Positions 1,671-21,655 of a DNA stretch of 43,538 nt are shown piece after piece (position 1 is the stretch's first letter; each line of letters starts with the position of its first letter). Source of the DNA: Bacteroidaceae bacterium (GTDB lineage: Bacteria; Bacteroidota; Bacteroidia; Bacteroidales; Bacteroidaceae); NCBI GenBank assembly GCA_017617235.1, contig JAFZWQ010000029.1, positions 1 to 43,538 of the forward strand, in the 5' to 3' direction. Below the pieces are notes generated by a model. That model ran no database searches, was not told the origin of the DNA, and worked only from the letters and a program-made list of their open reading frames with translations. A program made the translations under genes and the position numbers.

Positions 1671-3553
1671 TAGTTGGTCTTTTGGTTGCGACGGAGGAAA
1701 TAGAAGTAATAGAACGTGTCGCCAAACTGAGGCAGGAAGGCAGTCATTTTTTGGGCTTCAGTCATCGAGCCGCATTGGGTATTGAAGTCCATGAAGCGCT
1801 GGTAGTTCTGCTTGATTTGGTCGTCGAATGGCAACTTTGGCAGCACCTGCGCGTTGGTGAGGCTGGGCCACAAGGCACTCTCGCGATTGGGCTCCAGCAT
1901 CGAGTACAGGTAGGCAGCCTCCTGATAGTAGCGAGGCACACGGAAGCCGGGTTCCTGCTGGTGCATGTCAAGATAGAGGCGGAAACGGGGCCAGAAGAGG
2001 TCGATATCCTTCATGATGAGCGAACAGAGCAACGTCATTTCCTGATAGCCAGGGTCGGATCCCATACCACCAGAGAAGGTCTTCAGCAGATACATCTCGA
2101 CCAACGTGTTGTCGCCATCCAGACGGTCAGGGAACTCAGCCATCGGAATGATGGGCTTCATCTCCTCGTCCTCAGCCATCAGTTCTGGGTGACGGACGTA
2201 GGCCTGGTATTTCTCAGCCCACTCCTTGTGGTAGCGGGTTTGTCGGAGCATATCGATGTATTTCTGCGCCACCTCCCAGTCGTGGGTAATGAGGCTGCAT
2301 TTGGTCATGTACTTCAGCACATCCACACTCCAGCCAAACTCGACGCCGTCCTCCATGCACCAACGATAGCAGAAGCCCTCCTTTCCGTAGTGGTAGTACA
2401 GCAGTTTGCCACCCACCTGAGTCATGCGGACGGTCCAGGGTGCGTGTTGCTGTTCAGCACCTTCGGGATAGAGGAACATCTCGTCGCCCGCCCTTCCCAA
2501 ACGGAAGAGGGCCAGGTTCTTCATCATCACCATTGCCCGTGTGGGGGGCATGGGGTCTCCCATCTCCTGACTGAGCATGATGCGCAGCACTTCCTCCCAA
2601 TCCAGTCGCTCGATGGCGTTGTTCATCGCCACTTCCTTGTGGAAATTGGTATCGCGCTCCCAACGTTTCGATACGCCAAAGAAGGCGAGAGCGATGAGAG
2701 CAAGGCTGAGGAACCAAGAGAGGCGCAGTTCCTTATAGGTAGCCGTACTGTTGCGATAGATGAGTCCAGGCAAGGCGCAGAGGGCCATGGAAAGGGCTAA
2801 CGCATAGTAGGGATAGCGATAAACCGGACAATCGACCTTCCCATACTGGAAACAGGGCATGGCGGCCAGATAAGACTGGTCTATCTGCACCTGTCCGTAG
2901 AAGCGCTGCACGAGGATGAGGGGAACGAGCACGACGAGGGCGATGCCCAGCACCACGTTGATGGCCTCCGACTTGTCCATACGCAAGTGGCGAGGCACCA
3001 TCATCAGGGCCAGAGCCAGAATCCACCAGGCTCCCATGAGGGGATATCCGAAGATGCCAACAATGAGGAACCAAACGAGCTTGAGCCAGCGACGGGGCAA
3101 CAGCAAGTGTACGATGGCCAGCAGCGAGGAGAAGAGCACGCCAAGGGTGGGCACCCAGGGATAGCCCTGCAACTTCTGGTAGTAAACCCAGTAACCTGTC
3201 TGCACGAGGCACGCCAGCAGACAAAGGGGGATGAGAAGCGTCATCAGTCGCCACGGGCCACGCAGATGGAACTGGTAGCAAAGAAGGGCCATCGTGGCTC
3301 CCCAGCACAGCAGCATGAGGCTGATGCCAAGCCAGGGATGGAAGAAATACTGCGTCATGTAGGCCGCTGCCCAAGTGAGGGGTCCGCCTGGGTATATGAC
3401 AGAGGTTTTGAAGAAAGTGGCTGTGGGGAGCCACAGCGAATGAGCCTGCATGCGGTAGAGCACGTCACCCTCCGTCCTGAGCACCCACATTCCCATAGCC
3501 GCCAAGGCCAGAACCATGAGGAAGGGAACGAGTATTTTGTGTACGTATTTCAT
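1670..3553 (-). CDS. DUF6057 family polytopic membrane protein
   Basis: A 627-residue protein. The first ~320 residues hold about ten hydrophobic helices (for example LVPFLMVLALAAMGMWVL and LMTLLIPLCLLACLVQTGYW). The rest is soluble and helical, rich in aromatic and acidic residues. This matches DUF6057, a Bacteroidales membrane family of unknown function. The reading frame stays open to 3658, but a TATCTTTG -7 element at 3576-3583 lies inside that extension, so I place the start at the ATG at 3553 (MKYVHKILVPF). The PD40 lipoprotein gene follows on the same strand after 44 bp that consist of heptamer repeats. The pair probably forms one envelope operon. Confidence 0.75.
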   Translation of the reverse strand: MKYVHKILVPFLMVLALAAMGMWVLRTEGDVLYRMQAHSLWLPTATFFKTSVIYPGGPLTWAAAYMTQYFFHPWLGISLMLLCWGATMALLCYQFHLRGPWRLMTLLIPLCLLACLVQTGYWVYYQKLQGYPWVPTLGVLFSSLLAIVHLLLPRRWLKLVWFLIVGIFGYPLMGAWWILALALMMVPRHLRMDKSEAINVVLGIALVVLVPLILVQRFYGQVQIDQSYLAAMPCFQYGKVDCPVYRYPYYALALSMALCALPGLIYRNSTATYKELRLSWFLSLALIALAFFGVSKRWERDTNFHKEVAMNNAIERLDWEEVLRIMLSQEMGDPMPPTRAMVMMKNLALFRLGRAGDEMFLYPEGAEQQHAPWTVRMTQVGGKLLYYHYGKEGFCYRWCMEDGVEFGWSVDVLKYMTKCSLITHDWEVAQKYIDMLRQTRYHKEWAEKYQAYVRHPELMAEDEEMKPIIPMAEFPDRLDGDNTLVEMYLLKTFSGGMGSDPGYQEMTLLCSLIMKDIDLFWPRFRLYLDMHQQEPGFRVPRYYQEAAYLYSMLEPNRESALWPSLTNAQVLPKLPFDDQIKQNYQRFMDFNTQCGSMTEAQKMTAFLPQFGDTFYYFYFLRRNQKTN

Positions 3554-16276: not shown

Positions 16277-17677
16277 TTAGGGCAGAAGAATGTTCAACTC
16301 CCCCATTAGGGCATCGCCCTTCTCGTTCCAGCCAGTCAACCGCACATTCACAATCTCGTTATCCTGAAGGAAGTTCTTCCCTCTCTTTGGGAGAGGGGTT
16401 GGGGATGAGGCCTCCACCCTGATATAGTTATCCGTGAAGCCGCCAAACACGCCCTTCTTCTTACCGTGTTCCAACAGCACGGGTCGCACCGTTCCTATAT
16501 ATTTATTATAGAACGCGCGCGTATGGGCCTCGCTCACCTTCAGCACCTGCTGACTGCGGCAGTGCTTCTCCTCGGGTCGCACGCTGTGGGGGATGTTCAG
16601 GGCCTTGGTACCTGGTCGTTCGCTGTAACTGAACACATGATACTGACTCACGGGCAGTCGGTCCATGAATTCCAGCGCCTGGCGGAACAGTTCTTCCGTC
16701 TCGCCCCTCATGCCCACAATCACGTCCACACCGATGAAGGCATCGGGCATCAGTTCCCGTATGCGCATCATCTTCTTTTCGAACAGGGCCGTATCGTAAC
16801 GGCGATGCATCAATCGCAACACCTCGTCGCTGCCCGATTGCAGAGGCACGTGGAAATGCGGCATAAAGGCGCGGCTCTGGGCACAGAACTCCAGCACCTC
16901 GTCGGTCAGCAGGTTAGGTTCTATGCTGCTGATGCGGTAACGCTCTATTCCCTCTACCCGGTCCAGTGCACGAACCAGATCGATGAACGTCTCACCCGTC
17001 GTTTTGCCGAAGTCACCGATGTTCACACCCGTCAGCACAATCTCCCGTCCACCCTTTCGGGCCACCTCCTCGGCTTGCGCCACCATCGAGGCTATGGAAC
17101 CGTTGCGACTGCGTCCGCGGGCAAAGGGAATGGTGCAGTAGGTACAGAAATAGTCGCACCCGTCCTGCACCTTCAGGAAATATCGCGTTCTGTCGCCACA
17201 GGCACACGAAGGAGAAAACACAGAGGGCGCAGAGGAGACTGAGGGCACAGAGAGTTTTTGAGACTTTGCTTCCAACATATTCTCTGTGCTCTCTGTCTTC
17301 TCTGCGGCCTCTGTGAAATGATTCACAATCATTTCCACAGCCCTGCCCTTCTCTGCCGTACCCAGCACCAGGTCAACACCCGGTATCTGGCGCACCACAT
17401 CGGGCTTCAGCTGGGCATAGCAGCCCGTCACCACCACAAAGGCATCGGGATTCTCCTTCACCAGTTTATGGATAGCCTGTCGGCATTTGTGGTCAGCCAC
17501 CTCGGTAACGCTGCAGGTATTCACGTAACAGATGTCGGCACGTTCGCCCTTACAGGCACGTTCCACACCCATTTCCTGCAGTCGCTGGGCCACAGTCGAT
17601 GTCTCTGCAAAGTTCAGTTTGCAGCCCAGCGTAAAGTACACCGCCTTCTTCCCGTGCAAAGGTGTCATGCAATTCAT
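16277..17677 (-). CDS. mtaB: tRNA (t6A37) methylthiotransferase MtaB
   Basis: A 466-residue radical-SAM enzyme that inserts sulfur and a methyl group into t6A37 to give ms2t6A in ANN-decoding tRNAs. The N-terminal MTTase domain has FTLGCKLNFAET, NTCSVTE and VVTGCYAQLKP (three cluster cysteines). The radical SAM core has DGCDYFCTYCTIPFARGRSRN (CxxxCxxC). A C-terminal TRAM domain ends the protein. Two stretches look inserted: residues ~121-154, in the linker before the SAM core, are encoded by two 9-bp repeat arrays, and residues ~423-433 (SSPTPLPKRGK) in TRAM are encoded by a GC-rich repeat. The start at 17677 lies 4 nt after a perfect -7 element, so the mRNA should be leaderless; M4 at 17668 is the alternative. 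It is the first gene before the glycosyltransferase and RsmI-like genes. Confidence 0.92.
   Translation of the reverse strand: MNCMTPLHGKKAVYFTLGCKLNFAETSTVAQRLQEMGVERACKGERADICYVNTCSVTEVADHKCRQAIHKLVKENPDAFVVVTGCYAQLKPDVVRQIPGVDLVLGTAEKGRAVEMIVNHFTEAAEKTESTENMLEAKSQKLSVPSVSSAPSVFSPSCACGDRTRYFLKVQDGCDYFCTYCTIPFARGRSRNGSIASMVAQAEEVARKGGREIVLTGVNIGDFGKTTGETFIDLVRALDRVEGIERYRISSIEPNLLTDEVLEFCAQSRAFMPHFHVPLQSGSDEVLRLMHRRYDTALFEKKMMRIRELMPDAFIGVDVIVGMRGETEELFRQALEFMDRLPVSQYHVFSYSERPGTKALNIPHSVRPEEKHCRSQQVLKVSEAHTRAFYNKYIGTVRPVLLEHGKKKGVFGGFTDNYIRVEASSPTPLPKRGKNFLQDNEIVNVRLTGWNEKGDALMGELNILLP
16379..16410. repeat. GC-rich dispersed repeat in the mtaB TRAM region
   Basis: CCCTCTCTTTGGGAGAGGGG (a palindromic core at 16379-16398) followed by TTGGGGATGAGG. 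It is read in frame in mtaB as SSPTPLPKRGK. It is the same family as 91-116 and 15065-15097. Confidence 0.7.
17217..17317. repeat. Two inverted 9-bp tandem repeat arrays within mtaB
   Basis: 17217-17252: AACACAGAG, GGCGCAGAG, GAGACTGAG, GGCACAGAG. 17282-17317: CTCTGTGCT, CTCTGTCTT, CTCTGCGGC, CTCTGTGAA. The two four-unit arrays are inverted relative to each other across 29 bp. Both preserve the mtaB frame because the unit is three codons long. The same nonamer family encodes a signal peptide at 32399-32434. Confidence 0.85.
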
Positions 17678-17931: not shown

Positions 17932-18096
17932 ATGAAAAAGTTAGCATTCATGTTCGTAGCTGTTGCAGCTATTTCTTTCGCTTCTTGCGGAAACGGTACA
18001 AAGCAGGCTGAGGCCGAGGACACCACTGCAGTTGACACTGTTGAGGTTGTTGACACCGTAGCTGCTGACACTGTTGCAGCTGATTCTGTTGCCTAA
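17932..18096 (+). CDS. Tiny lipoprotein with an acidic DTV repeat tail
   Basis: A 54-residue protein. MKKLAFMFVAVAAISFASC is a lipoprotein signal peptide with lipidation at C19, leaving a mature peptide of only 36 residues. The tail repeats DTVEVVDTVAADTVAADSVA with a D-T/S-V period, which gives an acidic, extended chain. It is a single-gene unit with a -7 element upstream and a strong terminator at 18121-18157. I know of similar short Val/Asp/Thr-rich lipoproteins in Prevotella and Bacteroides but no function. It is probably abundant at the envelope, given the strong terminator and tight architecture (inference). Confidence 0.75.
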   Translation: MKKLAFMFVAVAAISFASCGNGTKQAEAEDTTAVDTVEVVDTVAADTVAADSVA

Positions 18097-18120: not shown

Positions 18121-18157
18121 TTGAGGGATTGCACCAAGTGCAGTCCCTCAATTTTTT
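18121..18157 (+). terminator. Rho-independent terminator of the 54-aa lipoprotein gene
   Basis: TTGAGGGA at 18121 pairs with TCCCTCAA at 18144-18151, and TGCAC with GTGCA inside, around a CAA loop, followed by six T. Its 3' arm and T-tract are duplicated at 18843-18865. Confidence 0.9.
18135..18157. repeat. Left copy of 23-bp direct repeat
   Basis: Identical over 23 bp to 18843-18865 (core AAGTGCAGTCCCTCAA, then T6). The two copies are 708 bp apart and bracket the nuclease gene. This copy is part of an intact hairpin; the right copy lacks the 5' arm, so the DNA between them looks like an insertion into the terminator. Confidence 0.85.
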
Positions 18158-18166
18158 GTTAAATAA

Positions 18167-18198
18167 TTTGGCAGTATAAAAAAAAGTCCATACATTTG
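18167..18198 (+). promoter_or_regulatory. Consensus promoter inside the repeat-bounded cassette
   Basis: TTTG at 18167-18170, a 20-bp spacer, TACATTTG at 18191-18198. A full match, pointing toward the nuclease gene from its 3' side. Confidence 0.7.
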
Positions 18199-18202
18199 CA
18201 GT

Positions 18203-18310
18203 GTCAGAATGCCGTCAGAGGGCGCGAACGATTTGCTTTCGGAGCAAAATTCAAGCTGGACCTTTCTGACTACCATACGAGGACATAGCCCACAAGGTTA
18301 TGTCCTCAGA
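18203..18310 (+). ncRNA. Candidate ~100-nt transcript convergent with the nuclease gene
   Basis: The promoter at 18167-18198 predicts a start near 18203. A hairpin at 18279-18307 (GAGGACATA/TATGTCCTC) followed by AGATTTTC could end the RNA. The segment could instead encode a short protein: an ATG at 18209 opens 64 codons (MPSEGANDLLSEQNSSWTFL) that run through the hairpin into the antisense of the nuclease gene. That protein looks like nothing I know. I favour a small RNA, at low confidence. Confidence 0.35.
18279..18307. terminator. Hairpin at the 3' end of the nuclease gene
   Basis: A 9-bp perfect stem GAGGACATA/TATGTCCTC with an 11-nt loop. It overlaps the nuclease stop codon (18298-18300). 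A short T-run follows on the plus strand only, so it suits the convergent transcript best. Confidence 0.6.
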
Positions 18311-18810
18311 TTTTCTATCACGTTGTTTATCAGCTGCTTAATGGTCTCTTTGTCAGGTGCATCAAAATCCGTAGACCTTACAACTACGGCCTTACTGTTA
18401 TGAACAACGTAACACTCATCAAGATCGCCATGACTGAAATCCTCGTGGCGACCGAATAGTCCAGAAACTATCTTTTTGGTCTTCAGAATACTTTCGGACA
18501 TGTGCATATCGAAGTCCAAAACTACAATCTTACAGCCTTGTTGCTTTGCCTTACGAAATGCTGATTTGATACCATTCTCACTTTCAACACCTTTCCTGTC
18601 ACCCAGCTTACCGTTGATGGTATATTCGGGATTCTTGTGGCCGATTGTCAGCAAGTGCTCGTTAATAATGATGTACATATCCCCGAAACAACTAAGTAGG
18701 ACTCTAGCAACACGGATATTATCATTCAGTTCCGTTTGGTCGGCCTGTATGCTAATAAGCAAACGTTCGCCGTATAATTCGTCTATTAGGAATTTGCTGT
18801 TGTCAATCAT
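18298..18810 (-). CDS. Orphan nuclease-like protein resembling CdiA C-terminal tRNase domains
   Basis: A 170-residue protein without signal peptide or membrane segment. Residues ~58-105 (HKNPEYTINGKLGDRKG, GIKSAFRKAKQQGCKIVVLDFDMHM) match the pattern of CdiA_C-type toxins of the BECR nuclease fold: NPD-x-x-I-x-GK-x-x-x-x-K, a helix with K/R residues, then a hydrophobic strand ending in D. In known cases this domain is the C-terminal warhead of a large toxin or phage/ICE protein; here it stands alone with no delivery module and no obvious immunity gene. It sits within a segment bounded by 23-bp direct repeats. Its start codon lies 4 nt after a -7 element. The assignment rests on motif pattern only; a different endonuclease fold is possible. 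Confidence 0.5.
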   Translation of the reverse strand: MIDNSKFLIDELYGERLLISIQADQTELNDNIRVARVLLSCFGDMYIIINEHLLTIGHKNPEYTINGKLGDRKGVESENGIKSAFRKAKQQGCKIVVLDFDMHMSESILKTKKIVSGLFGRHEDFSHGDLDECYVVHNSKAVVVRSTDFDAPDKETIKQLINNVIENLRT

Positions 18811-18814
18811 ACTG

Positions 18815-18846
18815 CAAAGTTAGCGATAAACGACGAACGATGCAAG
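18815..18846 (-). promoter_or_regulatory. Nuclease gene promoter, abutting the start codon
   Basis: On the minus strand: CTTG (complement of 18843-18846), a 20-bp spacer, TAACTTTG (complement of 18815-18822), then 4 nt and ATG. The -33 box is the first four bases of the right direct repeat, so the repeat supplies part of the promoter. Confidence 0.7.
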
Positions 18847-18865
18847 TGCAGTCCCTCAATTTTTT
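18843..18865. repeat. Right copy of 23-bp direct repeat
   Basis: Identical to 18135-18157, with one extra T in the tract. It lacks the 5' arm of the terminator hairpin. Confidence 0.85.
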
Positions 18866-18898
18866 TCTCGCGTTCCTCACTTGGAACAGGAAAACAAC

Positions 18899-18924
18899 AA
18901 GGCCTGCGGGTAGCCGCAGGCCTT
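18899..18924 (-). terminator. Hairpin terminator of the surface protein/peptide operon
   Basis: An 11-bp perfect stem AAGGCCTGCGG/CCGCAGGCCTT with a 4-nt loop, 36 bp downstream of the 60-aa peptide gene, followed on the minus strand by TTGTTTTCC. Confidence 0.85.
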
Positions 18925-18959
18925 GATGTTTATGTATGGTGGGAATATGTACCTATTCC

Positions 18960-19142
18960 CTACTCGTCCCTAAAATCATCTTCATCCCACACGTCCCAGC
19001 CGTTGTCCTCTTTGGACCATGCATTGCCTTTAGAAACAGGGCCACCACCGTTTACATTAAGACTATTGAGACTATCTGCAATAAGGGATTTGATAACTAC
19101 GGTCTCAACACGAAGTTCAGGTGTAATATATGTCTTTTTCAT
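18960..19142 (-). CDS. 60-aa peptide of the MKKTYITPEL type with acidic Trp-rich tail
   Basis: A 60-residue protein: a conserved-looking head MKKTYITPELRVETVVIKSL, a Gly/Asn-rich middle (SLNVNGGGPVSKGNAWS) and an acidic tail (DNGWDVWDEDDF). I know many Prevotella and Bacteroides peptides with this head and a variable tail, but no function. No signal peptide is evident. The ATG at 19142 is preceded by AAAGGAGGG at a 6-nt spacing, a strong Shine-Dalgarno sequence that is unusual in Bacteroidota. An in-frame ATG at 19160 overlaps the upstream stop (TAATG) but would put that sequence inside the coding region. It follows the 831-aa surface protein gene by 17 bp and ends before a strong terminator. 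Secreted peptide, RiPP-like precursor or cytoplasmic factor are all open. Confidence 0.65.
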   Translation of the reverse strand: MKKTYITPELRVETVVIKSLIADSLNSLNVNGGGPVSKGNAWSKEDNGWDVWDEDDFRDE

Positions 19143-19145
19143 GAT

Positions 19146-19157
19146 ACGCCCTCCTTT
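19146..19157 (-). promoter_or_regulatory. Strong Shine-Dalgarno sequence of the 60-aa peptide gene
   Basis: TGAAAGGAGGGC on the minus strand contains AAAGGAGG, nearly fully complementary to the 16S rRNA tail, about 6 nt before the ATG. Most other starts in the window lack such a sequence. Confidence 0.7.
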
Positions 19158-19159
19158 CA

Positions 19160-21655
19160 TTATTTAATCATTAATTTCTTTCCATTTACAATATACAAAC
19201 CACGAGTGGGCTTCGAAACACGCTGACCAGCTAGATTATAAATCTTGGCATTTTCAATATTCAATTTTCCATCTTCAATATGAGAAATGCCATCTACATC
19301 ATCCTCAAAGTTGAAACTGAAGGATTTCACACCAACTCCAAGTGCATCATAATATGCCTTACAGATAGGAGCCGTTGTGCCGTCAAGGGGATAAAAGCCT
19401 GCGCCAGAAGAATTTCCAGAAAGCACATATGTAGTTGCACTTACGGTAGTATTATCGGCAAGAGTTCCGTGAAGAACATTATCATTAGGAGCTGAAAGAT
19501 CAGAACTTACAATAGACAATGTGGTATTGCCTTTCACTGTTGCGCCTTCACTCCATAGGATTGCAGCAGTCTTAGCAGGCAGTACGTTATTTTCGACATC
19601 AGTTCCATCAGCCACCTTCGAAAGTGTCAAGACATCACCAGAAACAGATGCTTTGTATGCTTTTATATTATCCGGAAGTTCAACAGCGAAGGGCAAGTAA
19701 GTAGTCGCATAAGAATCATCGCCTGCTTGACGAAGATTTACAGTATTGTAATAGGTTTCAGTAGCATGTGCACCTTCAACAATGTAAAATGCTGAAGTAT
19801 AATCATTTTTCCAATAAGGTGCTGTAGATGCTTTCTGGAAATTGCCATCTTTTGTAACTATGATATTCCCATTCGTCGTACCATCTGTCCTAGTCCCTTC
19901 AAGATAGAAGCCACCGAAGAGGTCTGCACTTGTGGGCGAACCTTCATAATTACTACTTGTTGATGGAAGCTTCTTTACACGGATAGGAGAATAGGTTGCA
20001 TTGAAACCGTTTGTCATATGTTTACCATTGCTGGCTGCAATGACAGCATGATAATTTGTGACGTCACCGTTAGACGCATCTCTTGCTACAAAGAAATACT
20101 CATTGGTTCCTGGCAGTTTGTGAGCGACGAAGAAATCTCCATAGTATGTAGCTCCTTCATACTCTGCAAGTGCAAATTCTCCACCACCATAATGATATAA
20201 GGTATAAATCTTATCGGTACTCTTTTGGAAATTTCTAAAGGTATAGCTTTTTCCTTCTACTGGGTAATTAATATCCTCGCATGCCAAATATGCATCAAAA
20301 GCTGCCGTCAAAGTTGGATAATCGGTCTCGCCATTGGTTGCATAATCATATGCAGGATCCGTTACAGTATTATAAATTGTTTGCAAATCTGTACGAGCTG
20401 TAGCAGTTGACTTCGGATAGCCAACACCTGTTTTACCTAACATTGTGCTTACATGGTTCTCTGACAGATAACTTGTAATCATATCTTCCCATTTGCCAGT
20501 GTAGGTTATTGTAATTGTCTTTGTACTAGAATTCACGCTGACAGCACTCACATTGTAATTCTCACCTGCGTCATAAGCTGTAAAATCACTAGCTGATACA
20601 GATGTTCCTGTTGCAACGACAAGTTTGCCTCCATTATAAATGTTAGGATTTACGTAACCTTCACCAGAATAGGTGATATAAGGCGTAATGCTTGAAGGAG
20701 AGTTAACAATAACTGAATAAATGTCGTAAGAAGAGGTGCTTACGGCAGTAAAACCATAATCATTACTAAAATCTGTATTTGCCCTATTATATTGGACATA
20801 AGCATTATTCAATGAATTATCCTTCTTTACCAACATGAAAGCACTTTGGTCACTTGAAATCATGGGGGCATAGCCATCATTAATAGCATATAAAGTGTTC
20901 AAACTCCATTTATACGCATCGTTCGTAACACCTTTCCATCCTAAATATTTTTGTCCATTTACATTGCGGAATGTATAATATCCATCGTCCGTGAGTTCAG
21001 CTATCCACATGTATCGAGAACTTGATTCGCTATTGGAAGTGGCAACTCCCAGACTTGAATCATTGTTATACAAGTACTGTTGAACATCTATATCAGAAGC
21101 ATTCTTATTCTTACAATAGACATAATATACTGTTCCGTCAGTTACTAATGAAGAGGGAATATATTCTTCAAAAAGATAATCAGAGCACCATGTGCCATCG
21201 TTAATAGCTACAGTATATTGGTCAAAAGTGTTGTCTGCTGTCATCTTTGTCACCATCCATCGAAGATCACTCCCTGTAGAACTGTTGCACAGTGAAACAC
21301 AAGATCCGTCTATAACATCATTGCCGAGTACAAATTCAGTCATATACCGAATATCTGTTTGTGAACCCATGGCCTTCCATCCTAATCCCTTCTTGGTATC
21401 TACATTTGAGATACGATAGTAGCCACCATAGTACTGAACAAACCAAAGATATTTTGTATCACCGGCAGAAGGGGCTGTAGTTGTAGATTTAAGAGTTCCT
21501 CCATCATTATAAATATAACGCTTCGTGGCATCCTTGCTTACAGTCAAGTAATACGTTCTACCAATTTTAGGATACGCAGAAGCATTAGGAGAAACTGCCC
21601 ACGCCCCACTGAGAGACGTAAATAACGTGAAAAGAAGTAAAAGTAGTTTCTTCAT
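19160..21655 (-). CDS. Large secreted surface protein with C-terminal sorting-type module
   Basis: An 831-residue exported protein. Residues 1-20 (MKKLLLLLFTLFTSLSGAWA) are a signal peptide. The body has two similar blocks near residues 60-100 and 215-245: YYRISNVDTKKGLGWKAMG and YYTFRNVNGQKYLGWKGV, each Y-Y-x-x-RN-V-x-x-x-K-x-LGWK, as in ricin/beta-trefoil-like or adhesin repeats. The end (IYNLAGQRVSKPTRGLYIVNGKKLMIK) is the typical Prevotella C-terminal module linked to type 9 secretion. The hinge before it (residues ~793-802) is encoded by heptamers at 19251-19278. The gene is visibly more AT-rich than its neighbours and rich in Ser/Thr/Tyr/Asn. It shares an operon with the 60-aa peptide. 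Function unknown; adhesion or carbohydrate binding is a guess. Confidence 0.75.
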   Translation of the reverse strand: MKKLLLLLFTLFTSLSGAWAVSPNASAYPKIGRTYYLTVSKDATKRYIYNDGGTLKSTTTAPSAGDTKYLWFVQYYGGYYRISNVDTKKGLGWKAMGSQTDIRYMTEFVLGNDVIDGSCVSLCNSSTGSDLRWMVTKMTADNTFDQYTVAINDGTWCSDYLFEEYIPSSLVTDGTVYYVYCKNKNASDIDVQQYLYNNDSSLGVATSNSESSSRYMWIAELTDDGYYTFRNVNGQKYLGWKGVTNDAYKWSLNTLYAINDGYAPMISSDQSAFMLVKKDNSLNNAYVQYNRANTDFSNDYGFTAVSTSSYDIYSVIVNSPSSITPYITYSGEGYVNPNIYNGGKLVVATGTSVSASDFTAYDAGENYNVSAVSVNSSTKTITITYTGKWEDMITSYLSENHVSTMLGKTGVGYPKSTATARTDLQTIYNTVTDPAYDYATNGETDYPTLTAAFDAYLACEDINYPVEGKSYTFRNFQKSTDKIYTLYHYGGGEFALAEYEGATYYGDFFVAHKLPGTNEYFFVARDASNGDVTNYHAVIAASNGKHMTNGFNATYSPIRVKKLPSTSSNYEGSPTSADLFGGFYLEGTRTDGTTNGNIIVTKDGNFQKASTAPYWKNDYTSAFYIVEGAHATETYYNTVNLRQAGDDSYATTYLPFAVELPDNIKAYKASVSGDVLTLSKVADGTDVENNVLPAKTAAILWSEGATVKGNTTLSIVSSDLSAPNDNVLHGTLADNTTVSATTYVLSGNSSGAGFYPLDGTTAPICKAYYDALGVGVKSFSFNFEDDVDGISHIEDGKLNIENAKIYNLAGQRVSKPTRGLYIVNGKKLMIK
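19251..19278. repeat. Heptamer repeat encoding a hinge
   Basis: TTTTCAA, TATTCAA, TTTTCCA, TCTTCAA. Read on the minus strand within the 831-aa gene as IEDGKLNIEN, immediately before the C-terminal module. Confidence 0.75.

Follow-up and report, generated by a model that had tools for sequence, protein, structure and literature searches.

A CdiA_C-family nuclease gene paired with a convergent structured RNA gene: a candidate toxin and RNA antitoxin in gut and rumen bacteria and in phages

A nuclease gene and a convergent RNA gene

In the window analyzed here (43,538 nucleotides (nt) of contig JAFZWQ010000029.1, assembly GCA_017617235.1, from a Bacteroidaceae bacterium), a 708-bp cassette with a nuclease gene lies behind a lipoprotein gene. 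The initial annotation treated the nuclease as an orphan and listed a convergent consensus promoter beside it, which raises the question of what this second promoter transcribes and how the product relates to the nuclease. As read from the sequence, the promoter would drive a structured small RNA, and the cassette would be a two-gene module. We consider it likely that this is a toxin-antitoxin (TA) module, composed of a CdiA_C toxin resembling tRNA-cleaving nucleases (tRNases) and an RNA antitoxin (immunity RNA). The two genes have the following features:

18298..18810, minus strand: CdiA_C nuclease gene, 170 amino acids (aa) with an NPEY...DRK motif (open reading frame (ORF) and PF18451 match)
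18815..18846, minus strand: nuclease promoter CTTG-N20-TAACTTTG of the Bacteroidales type (CTTG at 18846-18843, TAACTTTG at 18822-18815)
18167..18198, plus strand: small-RNA promoter TTTG-N20-TACATTTG, full match (TTTG at 18167-18170, TACATTTG at 18191-18198)
18203..~18316, plus strand: small RNA gene, putative ends placed at the start of stem P1 and the end of a T-rich tail (match to RNA model R1, 18203-18269)
18221..18257, plus strand: conserved RNA core GGC-GC-GAA ... TTC-AA-GCT (stem P3, GC/AA internal loop, stem P4)
18279..18307, unstranded: RNA terminator hairpin, overlapping the last codons and the stop of the nuclease gene

The nuclease scored 31.6 bits against PF18451 (CdiA_C), above the curated Pfam cut-off of 26.6. 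It belongs to the PD-(D/E)XK fold of CdiA-CT toxins, the nearest folds being CdiA-CT tRNases; it is probably a tRNase, with tRNA as the predicted target. Foldseek alone returned nothing for it at E 0.001, a PDB sequence search gave just two weak unrelated rows, and PADLOC, PHROGs and NCBIfam gave no match. Searches with the window nuclease by tblastn against plasmids and, with this protein alone, against IMG/VR were also without a match; a phage collection yielded one weak match, MT835523, that was of use later. The gene is a 170-aa frame with its own promoter and not the end of a large CdiA protein with a CdiB partner, and the protein has no N-terminal MuF domain. The nuclease gene between the repeats and its promoter, with the -33 box inside the right repeat, were correctly annotated, as was the convergent promoter, a full Bacteroidales-type match. 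The larger omission was the pairing with an RNA gene.

The RNA consists of a P1 stem (GTCAGAA/TTCTGAC), the core and the terminator hairpin. Its folding energy corresponded to a z-score of -3.9, and 1 of 200 shuffled sequences folded equally well. Since the terminator overlaps the last nuclease codons, both genes end on one hairpin, which is probably common to the two transcripts. No Rfam family overlapped the window RNA at E values up to 10, or the RNAs of eight related loci at E up to 1.

Scanning each species of GTDB 220 through a single genome yielded 77 nuclease loci, by title 75 from Bacteroidales and two from Flavobacteriales. The covariance model R1, trained on 21 RNA sequences, matched at 67 of these loci; all 69 matches were antisense to the nuclease, and they are not all independent because the training sequences came partly from the scanned genomes. 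The P1 end of the RNA was located 24-54 nt past the nuclease stop in 64 of the 67 loci, and a hairpin with a T-run followed the RNA in 62. A TAnnTTTG box was present within 30 nt upstream of the RNA in 57 of 66 cases, versus 1.3% of 20,000 control windows. Among the ten loci without an R1 match, L162, L173, L182 and L185 are at contig ends, L181, L183 and L184 hold nuclease fragments, and L186 and L187 carry a divergent RNA that was caught by eye and by a core script; the tenth, L129, is considered below.

The same pair was found in other genomes of the genus. Close relatives of the nuclease (83-86% identity) were present in three of the first 101 same-genus genomes besides that of the window (G091, G050, G039). 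Each carries the window-type RNA, the copy of G039 being cut by a contig end, and the homology spans both genes and extends little past the promoters. Remoter nucleases (45-50% identity; G085, G080, G089, G030) were accompanied by a type-B RNA. Of 139 same-genus genomes, counting that of the window, 15 had the nuclease, 19 the RNA and 14 both; the RNA stood alone in G090, G111, G100, G046 and G126. A family-wide RNA search, which scored few candidates per genome, was positive in 17 of 399 genomes, of which 6 were common to the 14 nuclease genomes and 11 had the RNA only. A tail of the nuclease was left beside the RNA in G111 and, in the wider family, in G158 and G354 (tblastn E 3e-9, 9e-12 and 9e-11, respectively), and in G126 by eye only, where tblastn missed it. 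In G030, the RNA is intact and the nuclease frame-broken. RNAs have outlived their toxins in several genomes. This, together with the nearly constant presence of an RNA next to the toxin, fits an antidote.

L228 (G343) has two tandem type-1 motifs with differing P1 stems, seen by eye, one of them at a model E of 0.005. L175 has two RNA copies about 1 kb apart (2450-2498 and 3465-3513), one of which adjoins the nuclease.

We also considered type I-like control, in which the RNA would be antisense to the nuclease mRNA and block it, either at the shared 3' overlap or by pairing with another part. The tail-to-tail genes, overlapping at the terminator hairpin, would suit this, as would the predicted duplex of the window RNA with the 5' region of its toxin mRNA (-35.2 kcal/mol; other pairs, mean -23.5, standard deviation 8.8). 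Over 29 loci, however, the core paired with the 5' mRNA of its own toxin no better (mean -23.7) than with those of other loci (-23.5) or with shuffled sequences (-23.5). The conserved part of the RNA lies beyond the toxin stop and is kept as a structure, and RNAs remain in genomes without the toxin gene. We rate antisense control as improbable, with the overlap of the genes at the terminator still in its favor.

RNA structure, phage loci and the case for an antidote

Covariation in the RNA stems surrounds a core that hardly varies, RGC-GC-GA...UC-AA-GCU. Alignment A4 comprises 69 matches in 53 distinct rows and is biased towards the model, to which it was fitted; in it, 81.5% of the cells paired, compared to at most 53.4% once the partners were slid. 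Cells changed on both sides numbered 66 (shuffle mean 31.6; reached in 0 of 500 shuffles), and pairs with changes on both sides numbered 6 (shuffle mean 4.1; 6 of 500). Within 34 distinct type-B RNAs, one P1 pair was G-C in 20, A-U in 13 and G-U in 1, and the observed number of double changes was matched in 1 of 1000 shuffles. Between types, P1 was wholly different by eye (GTCAGA/TCTGAC, GAGGAT/ATCCTC, ATCAAGA/TCTTGAT, CACAAAGTC/GACTTTGTG), and P2 of type B (GTTGC/GCAAC) was likewise among the differing stems. The G-U pairs fix the strand of the RNA.

These data also bear on whether the RNA, rather than having a product of its own, belongs to the nuclease gene as a conserved 3' structure or terminator, or is a hitchhiking small RNA without relation to it. 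The RNA stands directly behind the nuclease stop, and the RNA gene is known here from sequence. Against such a role stand the promoter boxes on the RNA strand (57 of 66), the strand set by the G-U pairs, the solitary RNA copies and a covariation well past the level of a terminator. We rate this explanation as highly improbable, the least probable of those weighed for the RNA.

The RNA was also found behind phage toxins. Five loci encode fusions of the CdiA_C domain with a MuF head protein: L105 and L106 from the family of the window, L186 and L187 from Flavobacteriales, and L215 from a faecal phage with a Mu portal. The MuF score was above the cut-off in L105, L186, L187 and L215 and just below it in L106; the CdiA_C score of L215 was just below its cut-off. 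In all five, the RNA core followed the stop. IMG/VR contained 17 loci with a CdiA_C domain, of which L263 was left out because its frame breaks early. A fully paired antisense core was present within 170 nt past the stop in 13 of the 16 loci with unbroken frames, compared to 405 of 18,761 windows drawn at random from these loci (2%, true sites included). Since the search pattern required pairing, the evidence lies in this rate and in the variety of the pairings: P3 occurred in nine, including TTC/GAA, CAC/GTG, GGG/CCC, GAC/GTC and AAC/GTT, and P4 was GA/TC or GG/CC. The GC/AA loop is constant in the phage cores because it was set by the pattern. The exact type-A and type-B RNA patterns had no match in IMG/VR.

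Winogradskyella phage Peternella_1 encodes a MuF-type protein, the end of which lacks the NPEY/DRK motif and is not followed by an RNA core, and it was rejected as a candidate. In L267 (IMG/VR), one MuF toxin is followed by two core-like RNAs as seen by eye, of which the second lies about 200 nt past the first and has a promoter of its own.

The close link between a small nuclease and a structured RNA, in a unit found at unrelated loci, could also mean that the RNA is a cofactor that guides or activates the nuclease, as in HEARO/OMEGA-like systems, and that the pair is a defence or homing device. The 28 distinct type-A RNAs vary mostly in one hairpin loop and have no variable guide segment of the OMEGA type. 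Moreover, the RNA survives without the nuclease, it takes the place of the expected immunity gene after phage MuF toxins, and PADLOC had no match. A cofactor role is very unlikely on these grounds.

Several observations weigh against the antidote reading or narrow the evidence for it, in addition to the lean of A4 towards its model. The number of pair types in A4 (9; shuffles, 9.7) gave no support, P2 and P4 had no covariation signal inside the 34 type-B RNAs, and P1 of types A and B cannot be aligned column by column. In alignment A3 (21 rows; G224, the partial G039 and the duplicate G136 excluded), the core invariance is partly due to choice, because rows were partly chosen by core-containing patterns. 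Of the 11 RNA-only family genomes, two have low scores (G424 and G343), and the match in G424 appears to be false. L129 has an open nuclease and an RNA without its 5' half; L165, L172 and L174 of the 77 loci, as well as G224, have shortened RNAs. An inactive toxin or a second RNA elsewhere, for instance, could explain these cases. In IMG/VR, L266, L270 and L278 lacked the strict core, although L266 and L270 are similar by eye.

With these points taken into account, a toxin with an RNA antidote is still the reading we favor. From the minus strand would come a CdiA_C nuclease with the PD-(D/E)XK fold, which is probably a tRNase; the plus-strand promoter would yield a short RNA with strong structure that neutralizes this nuclease. 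By analogy to type III TA systems and AbiF, the folded RNA most likely binds the nuclease directly, and recognition may take place at the internal loop (5'-GC / 3'-AA) that is conserved between the two short stems. The one hairpin ending both transcripts would keep the pair together when it moves. In phages, a related RNA occupies the immunity position behind MuF-CdiA_C toxins, and the standalone pair of the window would be the toxin domain with its RNA, free of the carrier. The sequences directly show how the genes are paired, the structure and strand of the RNA, the pattern of promoters and terminators, the phage fusions and the empty sites; toxicity, the tRNA target, binding between RNA and protein, the direction of descent and the way of insertion are inferred.

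Insertion site and mobility

The cassette lies in the terminator of the lipoprotein gene:

17932..18096, plus strand: PG1828-family lipoprotein gene, host of the terminator (NF050142, 60.3 bits, cut-off 50)
18121..18151, plus strand: lipoprotein terminator stem-loop of 14 pairs followed by a T-tract; single copy in relatives L016-L025
18135..18157, plus strand: left 23-bp direct repeat CAAGTGCAGTCCCTCAATTTTTT, exact, equal to the 3' arm and T-tract of the terminator
18843..18865, plus strand: right 23-bp direct repeat CAAGTGCAGTCCCTCAATTTTTT, exact duplicate of the terminator's 3' arm and T-tract

The initial annotation described a small mobile unit, bounded by these repeats and without its own recombinase, in the terminator. 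Both exact copies are in place, 708 bp apart from start to start, and the left one sits in the 14-pair terminator, which the right one copies in part; an exact 23-mer that recurs at this distance is no chance similarity. A 708-bp unit is too small to contain a recombinase.

Relatives were found with the site empty. In 29 other same-genus loci, the mtaB neighbor was present in all and the lipoprotein in 26 (tblastn). None of these mtaB-adjacent loci had the cassette in the sequence present, which ends only 224 bases beyond the match in L042 and 325 in L043. Direct reading of ten relatives (L016-L025) showed one terminator in each. G091, G050 and G039 have an empty site here and the unit at another place. 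Comparison of the window flanks with the 77 nuclease loci gave only two short weak matches, neither adjoining the unit, and the homology between units stops about at the two promoters. A two-sided empty site with both window flanks was not found; the right-flank search gave short matches only, in 81 genomes.

Flanking repeats are not a rule. Exact flank-to-flank repeats of at least 14 bp were present in 4 of 64 other units, compared to 8 of 4032 in the cross-locus control. Since they are this rare, target duplication is not a defining feature, and the repeats at most insertions and the conserved ends of a transposable element were not observed. Mobility is partly supported: the site is empty in relatives and the units at other loci have unshared flanks, but flanking repeats are rare.

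The simplest reading is one insertion into the lipoprotein terminator that duplicated its 3' arm. We see about even chances that the 23-bp repeats arose without a transposition-like insertion, either when this spot was duplicated or when similar terminators recombined. The rarity of repeats at other units, the unconserved unit ends and the missing recombinase argue for such an origin; the excess of 4/64 over the control, the exact bounding of the unit by the repeat and the single terminator of the relatives argue against it.

The neighborhood has further features. An inverted-repeat, low-complexity stretch (CACAGAGG...) lies in frame within the mtaB-like radical SAM gene (17219-17315). At 18892-18931, there is a near-perfect hairpin with a 12-pair terminator-like stem on both strands; the same search found a 40-bp stretch of 90% identity at G000:C12. 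A 66-aa ORF (MKGGRIMKKTYITPEL...) is located at 18960-19160, and its start region recurs in the window's own genome and in the genus.

A second family and comparison with known systems

A second CdiA_C-like nuclease family, first met in G090, had 23 matches in 18 of the 139 same-genus genomes; five of seven tested members match PF18451, one of them above the cut-off. At 16 of the 23 places (L229-L242, L247, L248), examined by eye and by script without a statistic, a promoter and a conserved convergent RNA, unrelated to that of the window, were present past the stop in 16 by eye and in 14 by script. Rfam gave just three weak unrelated rows for this RNA. In L226 (G373), three promoter-plus-RNA units follow a MuF protein and look, by eye, like an immunity-RNA array. 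In contrast, four PF18451 loci from other families (L208, L210-L212) have a conserved ORF of 77-79 aa directly after the toxin on the same strand, as expected for immunity proteins.

The recurrence of the nuclease-RNA pairing in gut and rumen bacteria and in phages suggests that some bacterial toxins are checked by RNA and not by protein. We lean slightly towards a wider view, in which an entire class of polymorphic toxins, the MuF-CdiA_C toxins of phages together with their standalone relatives in bacteria, is guarded by immunity RNAs. In this view, the two nuclease subfamilies have RNA partners from two or more families without relation to each other, RNAs that are solitary, tandem or arrayed represent orphan immunity, and the RNA may be a decoy of the tRNA T-loop. 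The UUCAAGC stretch of the RNA appears to resemble the T-loop consensus. The related toxin E479 CdiA-CT cleaves in the T-loop (PMC9086364). Shortened RNAs without UCAA weigh against a decoy.

If the antidote reading is true, immunity to a phage-carried toxin can consist of some 100 nt of RNA that gene callers do not see. CdiA_C and MuF toxins with no apparent immunity gene would then be accounted for, orphan RNAs of gut and rumen bacteria could be read as immunity genes, and there would be a new RNA-nuclease recognition motif to solve. The pairing was not described in titles or abstract openings of the literature searched, with most subscription papers and supplements outside the search.

Like the type III systems ToxIN, CptIN and TenpIN, the cassette encodes, at one locus, a predicted toxic protein and a short structured RNA, which is proposed to neutralize this protein. 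In a type III operon, the RNA repeats and the toxin that follows them are transcribed from one promoter and separated by a terminator (PMC5086642). In contrast, the window RNA is convergent, has its own promoter and is normally single-copy, two tandem motifs being present in L228 only, and the toxin is a CdiA_C nuclease. AbiF/RCd22 of a Clostridioides difficile prophage is also a phage-borne toxin with an associated structured RNA; contact between RNA and protein neutralizes the toxin, in trans as well as in cis (PMC12373285). AbiF belongs to an unrelated protein family (Abi_2/AbiD/F), and the likeness is drawn without comparison of the RNAs. The MuF polymorphic toxins of temperate phages resemble L105, L106, L186, L187 and L215 in that a MuF head protein ends in the toxin domain; the portion of PMC5576092 considered does not mention RNA immunity. 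The Bacteroides prophage toxin Bxa has two immunity proteins (PMC11699363). The CdiA-CT toxins of Burkholderia pseudomallei 1026b and E479 are carried on CdiA and are countered by the immunity protein CdiI, whereas the nuclease described here is standalone or fused to MuF, with an RNA in the immunity position.
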